The notes under the pieces were generated by a model that saw only the letters and a list, made by a program, of their open reading frames with translations, ran no database searches and was not told the origin of the DNA. From positions 4,899,501-4,963,500 of the forward strand of contig NZ_JALJWP010000001.1 in the NCBI RefSeq assembly GCF_024169245.1: 64,000 bases of DNA. The letters run 5' to 3'. The first letter of the stretch is position 1. Each line of letters starts with the position of its first letter. Position numbers and translations under genes: made by a program. Source of the DNA: Pseudomonas koreensis (GTDB lineage: Bacteria > Pseudomonadota > Gammaproteobacteria > Pseudomonadales > Pseudomonadaceae). Below, one piece after another: positions 47,122 to 50,909 of the stretch.

Positions 47122-48523
47122 GGCCAGCGCCCTCCGCGCCAAAGGACTGGAACGCCGAAAACGGCACAGGATCAATCGGAAAGCGCGGGCGCAGCCAGCC
47201 GACATCCTGACGTCCAGTGGCTTGGCGCAGGCGATCGCTGCAATAGCCCACGCACATACGCCCCTGGCAATCGCCCATGCTCACGCGGGTACGCATTTTC
47301 AGGCTGGCGATGTCTTGCACGCCCTGCTCCAGCGCCAGATCGATGTCGGCGCGGGTTGCGTGTTCGCAGCGGCAAATCACCGTGTCGGCGGCGGGCAATG
47401 CAATCTGGCCGACGCCGCGTTCGGTGTAGCGATCCACCGCCGCACGAAAGCGCACGATGGCTCTGAGTTTGCTCGCGAAGCGATCGCGGCGCACGCGGGC
47501 CAGTTCGGCGTCGAGCACGCCGCGTTGCAGCAGGATGGAAGTGGCGGCAATCTTGCCGGCCAGCATCGCTGCTTCACCGCCGCGGATCCCGCCCATGTCG
47601 CCAGCCAGATGCACATGCGGCTCACTGCTTTGCTGCCAGACATCGGCATGAGCACGCAGATAGCCGTCATCGCTGAAGCCATGATCGAGGCCCATCTGCT
47701 GGCTCAATTGCGTGCGCGGGATAAAACCGTAACCGACCGCCAGCGTCTGCGCTTCGAAGCGCTCGACCCGCGACAGATCCGCCTCCCACGTCGACGAATA
47801 CGGCGCGACGCTGACGCTTTTCAATTCGCCGTCGCCATGGGCTTCCACCACGCCCCAGCCATAGTTCATCGCAATGCCGTGCAATTTCAGATAAGCGAGC
47901 ATGCTCAAGCCGTCGAGGAACAGTTGCGGCTTGTTCAACAGCGCCAGACTCTCGCGGGCGATCTTGCCGAACGCGCACGCCTCGTACACCCCGGTGACGC
48001 GCACGCCGCAGGCATGTAACTGAGTCGCGACCAATGGCAGCAACGGCCCGGTGCCGGCGATAATTACGGGCCCTTGCGGCTTGACCACGCCGCTCTTGAT
48101 CTGCAATTGCAGACCACCGAGCAGAATCACTCCCGGCAACGTCCAGCCGGGAAACGGCACGCTGCGTTCGTGACAACCGGCGGCCAGCAGCAGCTGCGGA
48201 TAAGCGATCTCATGCAACTGTTCGTCGGCGTCGAGTACCACCATTGCGCGGGTGCCTTCGGCGCCTACCACACGATGGTTGAGGCGCACGTCGATCAGGC
48301 CCGACTGCTGCTCAAATTCACCGTGCAGTTTGTCCAGCGCTTCCGAGTAACGCGGTCCGAGATAATCCAGTTGCACGCCATCGCGCAACGGCCCGCGATA
48401 CACCACCCCACCGAGGCGCGAGGCCTCTTCGAGCAAGGTGCAGCGCACCCCATGGCGCGCCAGCTCGATGGCTGCCGCCATCCCCGCCGGCCCGCCGCCG
48501 ACAATCAGCGGTTGCAGGCTCAT
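47114..48523 (-). CDS. hcnB: hydrogen cyanide synthase subunit HcnB
   Basis: A 469-residue NAD(P)/FAD pyridine nucleotide-disulfide oxidoreductase-fold subunit. The N-terminal motif is IVGGGPAGMAAAIELARHG and a second nucleotide motif IIAGTGPLL lies near residue 155. Near the C-terminus a BFD-like [2Fe-2S] module has four Cys (ICRCEHATRADID ... MGDCQGRMCVGYC). It carries electrons from glycine oxidation in the HcnABC complex. Its ATGA start overlaps the hcnA stop. Confidence 0.96.
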   Translation of the reverse strand: MSLQPLIVGGGPAGMAAAIELARHGVRCTLLEEASRLGGVVYRGPLRDGVQLDYLGPRYSEALDKLHGEFEQQSGLIDVRLNHRVVGAEGTRAMVVLDADEQLHEIAYPQLLLAAGCHERSVPFPGWTLPGVILLGGLQLQIKSGVVKPQGPVIIAGTGPLLPLVATQLHACGVRVTGVYEACAFGKIARESLALLNKPQLFLDGLSMLAYLKLHGIAMNYGWGVVEAHGDGELKSVSVAPYSSTWEADLSRVERFEAQTLAVGYGFIPRTQLSQQMGLDHGFSDDGYLRAHADVWQQSSEPHVHLAGDMGGIRGGEAAMLAGKIAATSILLQRGVLDAELARVRRDRFASKLRAIVRFRAAVDRYTERGVGQIALPAADTVICRCEHATRADIDLALEQGVQDIASLKMRTRVSMGDCQGRMCVGYCSDRLRQATGRQDVGWLRPRFPIDPVPFSAFQSFGAEGAGHE

Positions 48524-49072: not shown

Positions 49073-49612
49073 TCAATTGGTGAAGACGAACTGGCCTTTG
49101 ATCTTCTTTGCGCCGAAGAAACCAAGGTCGGGGAACAGCAGGTTTTTCAGCCAGGCCACGTAGAAAATCATCGCCAGGGTGATTGCCACGCCGATCACCG
49201 TACCGGTGGGGTCATCCCCGTATTCCTTGAACATGCGCGGAACCTGGCTGATCGAGAGCACCACGTACACCGTGTAAGCATGAGCCGCGTTGCGATAAAA
49301 ACCCCAGGCAAAGAGCAAAGGCACGCCACCGGCGAACAAACCAAGTCCGATGGCAAAACCGCTGCTGATGGTCAGCCCGAGGAGATAGCCACCCACCAGA
49401 CCGATCAGGGCCTGAACGTAAGTCAGTCCGAGGAGGACCTTGATCTTGCCGGCGTGGCGTTCGAGCAGATCCGGATCCGGGCGCGAACCGATCAGATAGG
49501 CCAGCGCCTTGTCTTTCAGCGCACCACCGGAGAAGGCCTTGAAAGTATCGGTTTTCGAGCGCCCGGCATCGAGCATTTCGGCGACCTGGCGTTTGATTTC
49601 CTTTTTGTCCAA
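49073..49612 (-). CDS. uncharacterised membrane protein
   Basis: A 179-residue protein. The first 60 residues are soluble and charged (MDKKEIKRQVAEMLDAGRSKTDTFKAFSGG), followed by four hydrophobic segments (VLLGLTYVQALIGLVGGYLLGL, FAIGLGLFAGGVPLLFAWGF, AYTVYVVLSISQV, GVAITLAMIFYVAWLKNLLFP) and a short tail. The N-terminal part looks like a helical cap. I do not recognise a family. It is upstream of hcnA on the same strand but 239 bp away, with its own start region. Confidence 0.78.
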   Translation of the reverse strand: MDKKEIKRQVAEMLDAGRSKTDTFKAFSGGALKDKALAYLIGSRPDPDLLERHAGKIKVLLGLTYVQALIGLVGGYLLGLTISSGFAIGLGLFAGGVPLLFAWGFYRNAAHAYTVYVVLSISQVPRMFKEYGDDPTGTVIGVAITLAMIFYVAWLKNLLFPDLGFFGAKKIKGQFVFTN

Positions 49613-49870
49613 CGTGTTCTTCCTTAATTAAAAAAATCGGGGGAGTGAAGCAAGGGCACTTCGGGAACCGATTGTCGCCTTGTTGAGTTGCCGAAAGCAA
49701 AAGGCTCAGGCATGCCGGCCCTTACGCAGTGGATAAACACAATTTGTCGATCATGTTTAAATCACACGCGCTGTTACCGCATCGGACTTACAACGCCTTG
49801 CGTCGCTGCCTACGGGTGCATCAGAATCCGCCGGCTTACACGGCTATCGGTAGGGCTATATCGTTTCCCT

Positions 49871-50103
49871 GTCACTGCAAAACAGTGATCGGGTTTGGTA
49901 GCCCGTTTCTTGATAGTTGTACGGCGTCCCTTTAAGCGGCCCCTCTTTTGAGGCTCAGCTCTTTATGGTGACCATGCGTGGGGCTCATTCGTGAGCGCCG
50001 GGGTTAACTATCTTGACCGGTCTACCAACCCGCGCGTGGCCGCCACCCTTCGTTTGGTAGCGATAGTGACGGCTCTTCATTCCTTCAAGATAGAGAGTCA
50101 ACC
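49871..50103 (+). ncRNA. structured leader with mutually exclusive pairings upstream of a DUF6124-like gene
   Basis: Segment B (50006-50032, AACTATCTTGA ... CTACCAACCCG) can pair in full with segment A upstream (GGGTTTGGTAG 49891-49901 plus GATAGTT 49912-49918) or with segment C downstream (TTTGGTAG 50053-50060 plus TCAAGATAG 50085-50093). C adjoins the AGAGAG ribosome site before the ATG at 50104. The A:B helix would enclose three local hairpins: CCTC-TTTT-GAGG (49942-49953), ATGGT-G-ACCAT (49965-49975) and GCTCA-TTCG-TGAGC (49983-49996). Another hairpin, TCACTG-CAAAA-CAGTGA (49872-49888), precedes A. This looks like a translational switch or riboswitch-type leader. The rest of the 49613-50103 gap has nothing I recognise. 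Confidence 0.6.
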
Positions 50104-50469
50104 ATGTTCAAAGTAACGCCAAACCCGCCAGAAGCCGATTCGATCCCGTACGACCCTGCTTTGGAGCCACAGCGAATAAAAGACGCGGCCGCTCGCGCCA
50201 TCAACTTTTATCTCGATCCTCAAACCTTGAAGACCACGATTCCCAATCGCCAACCGGGCAGGATCTTTATCGTAGACCCAACTGTGGACGACGAAACGCT
50301 GCTCGTCGAAGCCTGTGAATCGCTGGCTGCGGCGAACGACATGGCCCGCGAAATAAGCACTGTCATAGAGCCTGCACAGCGCCGTTCGCTGCTGATGTTG
50401 CAGCAGGTGATCATGCTGAGTGAGCTGATCGTCAATCGCGTGCTCGACAGCCGACGCGTGTCGAACTAG
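50104..50469 (+). CDS. DUF6124-like small protein, copy 1
   Basis: A 121-residue soluble protein. The N-terminal 60 residues are Pro-rich and variable (FKVTPNPPEADSIPYDPALE), then a strand RIFIVDP and a helical domain (DETLLVEACESLAAANDMAREISTVIEPAQRRSLLMLQQVIMLSELIVNRVLD). I recall this as the Pseudomonas-specific DUF6124 family, often found behind related leaders. Function is unknown. The second copy 104 bp downstream shares the helical domain. The start is the ATG at 50104 with AGAGAG 6-11 bp upstream, the site involved in the leader's alternative pairing. Confidence 0.85.
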   Translation: MFKVTPNPPEADSIPYDPALEPQRIKDAAARAINFYLDPQTLKTTIPNRQPGRIFIVDPTVDDETLLVEACESLAAANDMAREISTVIEPAQRRSLLMLQQVIMLSELIVNRVLDSRRVSN

Positions 50470-50572
50470 CCGCAACCGAGGCATGAGGGGGCGTGCTCCC
50501 TCACTGCCAGCGTGGACGTCACCTCGTGGCGTCCTCTCTCACACCAAGCTGCTCTCATCGGAGTTTCAGCTG

Positions 50573-50842
50573 ATGTCACAGACACCATCCAATCCGCCGG
50601 CCAGGATCAACGCCACGCCGTACAGCCCCAATACTCTGTTCATGGTCAACCCGCAATCCGACACCGAATCGTTGCTGGTCAACGCGTGCGAATCCCTGGC
50701 GTCCGCCACGGTGATGCTCGGTGATTTTGCCGGGATGCTCGAAGGCTCACGGCGCAATACCCTGTTGGGCATTGCGCAAGTGGTCATGTTGGGAGAATTG
50801 GCCGTGAACAAAGCGCTGGATAACGTCGTGCCGACCGAGTAA
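50573..50842 (+). CDS. DUF6124-like small protein, copy 2
   Basis: An 89-residue paralogue of the preceding protein with a shorter N-terminus. The shared block is FMVNPQSDTESLLVNACESLASATVMLGDFAGMLEGSRRNTLLGIAQVVMLGELAVNKALD. The ATG at 50573 has GGAG 9 bp upstream; the frame stays open to 50483 but without a good ribosome site. Together the two genes look like a tandem duplication served by one promoter. Function is unknown. Confidence 0.85.
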   Translation: MSQTPSNPPARINATPYSPNTLFMVNPQSDTESLLVNACESLASATVMLGDFAGMLEGSRRNTLLGIAQVVMLGELAVNKALDNVVPTE

Positions 50843-50874
50843 TTCGCCGCGCTTGCGTTTGCAGTTCCAAAAAG

Positions 50875-50909
50875 CAAAAAAGCCGCTTTCACCCGAAGAT
50901 GAAAGCGGC
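50875..50909 (-). terminator. terminator of the 51.0-51.95 kb minus-strand unit
   Basis: GCCGCTTTCA and TGAAAGCGGC form a perfect 10-bp stem with an 8-base loop. On the minus strand the stem is followed by a run of T's (A's at 50875-50881), so it terminates the leftward genes; it may also act, more weakly, on the rightward ones. Confidence 0.85.

Follow-up and report, generated by a model that had tools for sequence, protein, structure and literature searches.

C4 is established as an immunity RNA of phages. In the annotated record of phage P1, two promoters are accompanied by a1 (48255-48261), b1 (48269-48276), c4 (48343-48419), a2 (48423-48429), and b2 (48452-48459), with icd running from 48470. 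Weinberg et al. 2010 described the c4 antisense RNA and c4-a1b1 motifs in Proteobacteria and phages, and the available text of that paper contains nothing on copy number, private codes, or DUF6124 (PMC2864571). The occurrence of many C4 copies per chromosome is already known from A. baumannii, with 21 similar C4-like group 1 sRNAs in one chromosome; they share with the RNAs considered here the high copy number, the variable a' loop, and the apparent processing at GG, whereas the accessible part of that study describes no cis-encoded target with a matching code and proposes the targets as open (PMC5320573). A comparable arrangement, according to the available text, is the Salmonella Gifsy-1 IsrK-orf45-anrP module, in which an upstream RNA pairs with the middle segment and frees the translation of the anti-repressor operon (PMC4825925). 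In the literature searched, with subscription journals mostly outside the search, no paper was found that joins C4 RNA with DUF6124 or DUF3077, nor was any mention of DUF6124, while DUF3077 turned up in one paper; matching cis-encoded targets, the DUF6124/DUF3077 link, and the insertion of the cassette were not found in print.

The leader and its RNA class

The window is the whole 64-kb stretch of DNA analysed, and the leader under study occupies 49871..50103. Direct reading of the window locates segment A (TTTGGTAG at 49894-49901 and GATAGTT at 49912-49918), segment B (AACTATCTTGA at 50006-50016 and CTACCAACCCG at 50022-50032), and segment C (TTTGGTAG at 50053-50060 and TCAAGATAG at 50085-50093), whose end lies 10 nt upstream of the ATG at 50104. 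These are the positions given by the sequence-only reading, and B pairs with A or with C as proposed there, the A:B and B:C pairings being both nested and mutually exclusive. By Rfam cmscan, 49961-50050 is a C4 antisense RNA (RF01695, 68.1 bits, cut-off 45) and 49858-49909 is a c4-a1b1 target motif (RF03163, 49.0 bits, cut-off 46.7). We assign the leader to the C4-type antisense RNAs, a class known from phage P1, and not to a new riboswitch; segment A corresponds to a1/b1, segment B to a'/b' of C4, and segment C to a2/b2 at the ribosome site and, as expected of a C4 RNA, a'/b' complement a2/b2 where the following gene has its ribosome site. The sequence-only reading, which recognised no known RNA class, does not hold on this point, both matches exceeding the curated Rfam cut-offs. 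The description of two exclusive pairings, one of them beside the start of the DUF6124 gene, with a multi-stem middle part and a likely role as a translation switch, is retained; the idea that this layout indicates a ligand- or protein-binding aptamer is wrong or unsupported.

Only C4 and c4-a1b1 stand above cut-off in the 64-kb window, with no riboswitch family among the Rfam matches, and a scan of 49600-50900 to E 1 returns no riboswitch match either; on these results, a ligand riboswitch was rejected as a candidate. The switch is most likely RNA-controlled rather than ligand-controlled. A weak match to isrK (RF01394) covers 49871-49948 over a1/b1 with 32.3 bits, below its cut-off of 50, so the leader is not an IsrK member; a further difference from IsrK is that the terminator-like site at 49890-49905 of the window is, by eye, absent from many other copies. 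As in P1/P7 immI (c4-icd-ant), the order is promoter, a1, b1, C4, a2, b2, and target gene, and the distances to the start codon are similar, with a2 starting 47 nt (P1) versus 50 nt (window) and b2 18 versus 19 nt away. Unlike immI, whose targets are icd and ant, the window cassette targets DUF6124, is chromosomal, and belongs to a set of 31 copies in the genome; the leader would work like immI but, given its target, is not classed as immI. As regards a type I toxin-antitoxin system, PADLOC gives no match for either DUF6124 protein of the window. The features of the cassette are as follows.

49694..49702, no strand: left copy of the 9-bp bounding repeat AAAGCAAAA, whose only two plus-strand copies in the 64 kb are this one and that at 50871
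49755..49761, plus strand: GTTTAAA motif, 43 nt 5' of the -35-like hexamer
49798..49827, plus strand: promoter-like TTGCGT-N18-CAGAAT, read from sequence only, with a similar pattern in 51 of the 136 elements of the wider set described below
49858..49909, plus strand: c4-a1b1 target motif
49895..49901, plus strand: a1 TTGGTAG, in segment A, complement of a'
49912..49918, plus strand: b1 GATAGTT, in segment A, complementary to b' in its 5' part
49961..50050, plus strand: C4 antisense RNA, with the expected RNase P cut before GG 49967
50006..50016, plus strand: b' AACTATCTTGA, in segment B (direct reading, fold, covariation)
50022..50028, plus strand: a' CTACCAA, in the CTACCAACCCG stretch of segment B (direct reading, fold, 7-mer comparison)
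50054..50060, plus strand: a2 TTGGTAG, in segment C (direct reading, 7-mer comparison, covariation)
50085..50093, plus strand: b2 TCAAGATAG, in segment C, in contact with the GAGAG ribosome site (direct reading, covariation)
50104..50469, plus strand: target gene, encoding a 121-aa DUF6124 protein (PF19619, E 2.1e-16)
50573..50842, plus strand: second DUF6124 gene, 89 aa (PF19619, E 6.5e-24), without a C4 of its own, the window having one C4
50871..50879, no strand: right copy of the bounding repeat AAAGCAAAA

The promoter-like element at 49798-49827 predicts an RNA start at about 49834, 5' of segment A; a consensus promoter scan found no promoters and did not report this element. The GTTTAAA motif occurs in 41 of the 136 elements and lies 42 or 43 nt before the -35-like hexamer in all 35 elements that have both, and is a possible candidate for a regulator binding site. 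The RNase P cut is expected before GG 49967 by analogy with P1 and A. baumannii, and the GG at the presumed cut is present in 31/31 C4 copies of the genome.

The nested A:B energy is not striking alone, since 266 of 3000 dinucleotide-shuffled versions of A match it; for the nested B:C energy, shuffling C gives 6 matches in 3000, and the two energies are jointly matched by none of 3000; among other stretches of the window, 53/1582 (A) and 9/1582 (C) match the pairing energies. The minimum-energy fold of 49871-50125 (z -2.39) is the C4 fold, in which neither A:B nor B:C is formed, b' lies inside a 15-nt hairpin loop, and a' inside a 7-nt unpaired stretch.

Proposed operation of the operon

The leader is very probably a C4-type antisense RNA operon in which C4 silences its own DUF6124 gene and a1/b1 competes. 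Specifically, a transcript from about 49834 would carry a1/b1, the C4 RNA, a2/b2, and the DUF6124 gene in this order, and RNase P would release C4 as an RNA of roughly 80 nt. The a'/b' segments of the freed C4 would bind a2/b2 and cover the ribosome site, so that the cassette would silence its own gene and any copy with the same code in the cell. Conversely, a1/b1, either uncut or as a freed 5' fragment, would hold C4 off a2/b2, comparable to the way in which the short IsrK RNA switches on its operon in Salmonella. We infer the transcription start, the RNase P cut, the repression in trans, and the decoy role of a1/b1; the steps after transcription are modelled on P1, A. baumannii (PMC5320573), IsrK (PMC4825925), and PMC12197685, within the available text of these papers. 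Direct support comes from the family match, the anatomy, the three-way complementarity with double changes, the many differing codes, and the insertion as a unit; the Bro-N anti-repressor-like proteins behind C4 in some other genus genomes also speak for the model. Points against it are the weak specificity under two looser pairing scores, the modest ranking of the own a1, the codes common to copies 2/3 and 9/10, the failure of the consensus scan to report the promoter, and a ribosome site that, in the window, only touches b2.

Copies in the genome and their pairing codes

The genome (5.97 Mb, single contig) contains at least 31 C4 matches, all above cut-off, among the 150 scored of 1649 first-look candidates, while C4 is found in 0/14 control genomes. 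A c4-a1b1 motif lies 25-64 nt upstream of 30 of the 31 C4s, and for 28 of them a DUF6124 match lies 161-215 nt downstream on the same strand, the chance expectation being 0.05 links. Copy 4 has a DUF3077 instead of a DUF6124 match downstream, copy 27 precedes a protein without a Pfam match, and copy 31 a small gene that is not among the 28 with DUF6124. For 3 of the 33 DUF6124 matches in the genome, the 600 nt upstream contain no C4. One DUF6124 match (1554943-1555125, minus strand) has a c4-a1b1 motif upstream (1555455-1555506) with no C4 match in between, where a C4 has perhaps decayed. The nearest named relatives of the window proteins are from Pseudomonas, e.g., P. atacamensis with 95% identity.

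A loss of A/B and B/C complementarity in homologous leaders, the first refuting outcome named by the sequence-only reading, was not observed: in 13 related leaders close to that of the window, which is included, both pairings are maintained, with changes on both sides. For B:C, 91.2% of the cells are paired, with 20 double-change cells against a shuffled mean of 6.9; for A:B, 85.5% are paired, with 15 double-change cells against 6.0. For both pairings, the cells paired, the double-change cells, and the covariation score, all measured on a reference structure taken from the window and biased toward it, are each reached by 0/500 shuffles, and slid controls pair at most 52.2% (B:C) and 42.9% (A:B) of the cells. 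Two weaker measures separate less: as many doubly changed pairs occur in 23/500 (B:C) and 12/500 (A:B) shuffles, and as many pair types in 178/500 and 69/500. The variation is confined to the b helices, where b', b1, and b2 change together, while the a helices are invariant; the outer two b1:b' pairs are broken in 9/13 leaders.

Most of the 31 copies appear, from their sequences, to pair best with their own target, i.e., to carry a private code. The score on which this call relies, the third tried, takes the best unbroken helix of a':a2 plus that of b':b2 within tighter windows, and a few start codons are misassigned in it (e.g., copy 21). With ties counted as first, the own a2+b2 target ranks first for 26/31 C4s and the own C4 for 26/31 targets; on single sites, the own ranks first for 19/31 (a2) and 20/31 (b2). 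The own mean is -26.8 kcal/mol versus -15.7 for the others and is reached in 0/10,000 permutations. The first scoring, by duplex energies with bulges, put the own a2/b2 first for 3/31 and the own a1/b1 for 14/31, and the second, by unbroken helices in loose windows, put the own first for 8 (a2), 10 (b2), 4 (a1), and 4 (b1) of 31. These two looser scorings indicate weak specificity, yet every permutation test run reached the own mean 0 times.

A wider set joins the genome's own elements with 105 from other genomes to give 136, of which 127 were parsed and 9 dropped by the parser. The own a2+b2 is among the best 1% for 75/127 and among the best 5% for 102/127 elements, and the own a1 among the best 5% for just 51/127. 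The parsed elements carry 103 distinct b' strings. An exact 7-nt match between a' and a2 is found in 122/127 elements, with the same 7-mer within a1 in 107; 29 distinct 7-mers occur.

It is unlikely that C4 regulation operates without private codes, with all copies cross-regulating as one network. In its favour, the frame sequences are alike and a' recurs between copies (CTACCAA in 26 of the 122 elements having a 7-mer); copies 2 and 3 have a common code, as do copies 9 and 10, and a foreign target outscores the own one for copies 2, 3, 21, 23, and 29. The gap between own and other energies and its permutation test argue against it, as does the rarity of exact a'/a2 7-mer matches in draws of elements with different codes (582/18,246 for a2; for a1, 124/18,246).

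Very improbable is a riboswitch or thermosensor acting in cis, in which a ligand, a protein, or heat would set A:B versus B:C with no freed RNA. The two exclusive pairings are indeed present in cis, and such a switch is part of the Salmonella IsrK model as presented in the available text (PMC4825925), but only C4-clan families exceed the Rfam cut-offs, and the leader varies most in its pairing segments, which is not what an aptamer core would show.

Spread, insertion, and phage association

C4 is widespread in Pseudomonas, being found in 110/119 genus genomes, in 109 of them above cut-off, and DUF6124 and DUF3077 in 95 and 93 of the 119, respectively. Up to 33 candidates were scored per genome, with a median C4 count of 13 and 16 genomes with at least 33. 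The C4 copy number follows that of DUF6124 plus DUF3077 (Spearman 0.94 over 119 genomes, a statistic that ignores relatedness); the 9 genomes without C4 also lack DUF6124 and DUF3077, and 14 genomes have C4 and neither family. In a phylum-wide draw with up to 10 candidates scored in each genome, C4 occurs in at least 62/398 genomes. It is hardly credible that the window copy is a decayed phage remnant with no present function, for, despite at least one DUF6124 gene of the genome being split over two matches (1334804-1334993) and no phage genes being recognised beside the window cassette (8 proteins scanned), C4 is present in nearly all genus genomes as counted above and the matching sites change together, which indicates selection for pairing.

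The longest-ORF rule used for the downstream proteins gave wrong frames at some loci (e.g., copies 1, 14, 16, and 18) and no ORF for 6/136 elements. In alignment A1 (n=68), 50 downstream proteins are DUF6124, 12 DUF3077, and 2 Bro-N, counts that are no survey of families because the 68 proteins were hand-picked, nearly all from the 130 ORFs; none of the 68 matches NCBIfam. At six loci (L080, L082, L083, L087, L090, and L122), the C4 leader precedes a 175-aa protein, which has a Bro-N domain in both cases scanned (L080, L122) and is named anti-repressor in PHROGs. At L073, L074, L075, L085, and similar loci of several genomes, a gene of about 53 aa lies behind a high-scoring C4; the protein of L073, the sole one tested, has no Pfam match, and some of these loci (e.g., in G034) have a DUF3077 match about 0.5-0.6 kb past C4. 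A second C4 match at L054 (element at 459, reverse; E 0.00085) is weak; its closing stem is very long and nearly perfect, and it is perhaps a divergent C4.

The window cassette is inserted as a unit. The gene on its left flank was searched in 59 genomes, including its own, and was found in 13 others. In 10 of these relatives, the two DNA flanks lie next to each other, separated by 50-221 nt that contain no C4 match; as for the remaining three, G033 has the cassette, G016 (L198) has one flank aligned, and G021 neither. G034 carries a cassette that is 87-90% identical in two pieces; it sits some 36 kb away from the flank gene, in a different neighbourhood. AAAGCAAAA stands on both sides of the window cassette (49694 and 50871) and, by eye, once in 9 of the 10 printed empty sites, L204 having a variant; at this one locus, an insertion with target duplication is suggested as the simple reading. 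The same comparison for copy 6 encounters relatives that are rearranged at that site. The empty-site gaps of 149 nt (L200) and 221 nt (L204) contain inverted-repeat DNA, which we take to resemble REP elements, so the site receives other insertions too.

DUF6124 is encoded in one phage record (EU982300) and at 23 IMG/VR loci, with C4 just upstream in 24/24 cases, and no relative was found in plasmid records. In EU982300, the DUF6124 gene and prtR, the prophage repressor gene, are divergently oriented. Neighbours were read at 5 of the 23 IMG/VR loci, with proteins of 2 to 5 of those scanned; a gene of 839-895 aa is downstream in 5/5, and PHROGs marks it as tape-measure-like, with tail genes next to it, at L239 and L251. 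Other neighbours include a Dsr1-like SIR2 protein (L239), a PDC-S31 match with an AbiJ/Abi_C protein (L243), a CHAT-domain protein (L251), and a weak LmuA/MBL match (L257); two proteins scanned at L246 gave no match. These results suggest a tie between DUF6124 and the cargo of prophages, with defence-like genes close by at some loci. Some codes are common to IMG/VR and genome loci (L246, L249, and L251 with L061; L255 with L057; L237 and L240 with L050), and for several IMG/VR targets a foreign genome C4 outscores the own one, which leaves the phage link through shared codes only suggestive.

The model of the window DUF6124 protein (mean 72.6, pTM 0.46) has helices at 22-37, 63-87, and 90-120, with pLDDT mostly near 90 in the last two and a weak N-terminal part. 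A fold search with this model gave no PDB match with E < 1, and no fold-based function is therefore claimed. As a first guess, held tentatively, DUF6124 may be a phage-type effector such as an antirepressor.

More conjecturally, and with doubt about the scheme as a whole, Pseudomonas may harbour genus-wide, mobile, self-silencing one-gene cassettes, each with a two-part RNA code of its own: a resident C4 would silence whatever cassette or prophage enters with a matching code, a new code would be expressed on entry, the dispersed chromosomal copies would constitute a heritable record, in RNA, of heteroimmunity groups, and DUF6124/DUF3077 would be the effectors kept off. With 31 copies, the genome provides a natural array of antisense regulators in parallel, most of which appear to pair best with their own target, and it makes testable how several matching sites change together while keeping their pairing. 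Moreover, the link to C4 provides a regulatory handle on DUF6124 and DUF3077.

Lastly, at four loci of the genome (L172-L175, at about 2.93, 3.04, 4.15, and 4.42 Mb), C4-DUF6124 copies are separated or flanked by genes of about 1066-1445 aa, which look as though they had been duplicated together with the copies, and one of these large genes contains a Big_3_5 Ig-like stretch, below its cut-off.
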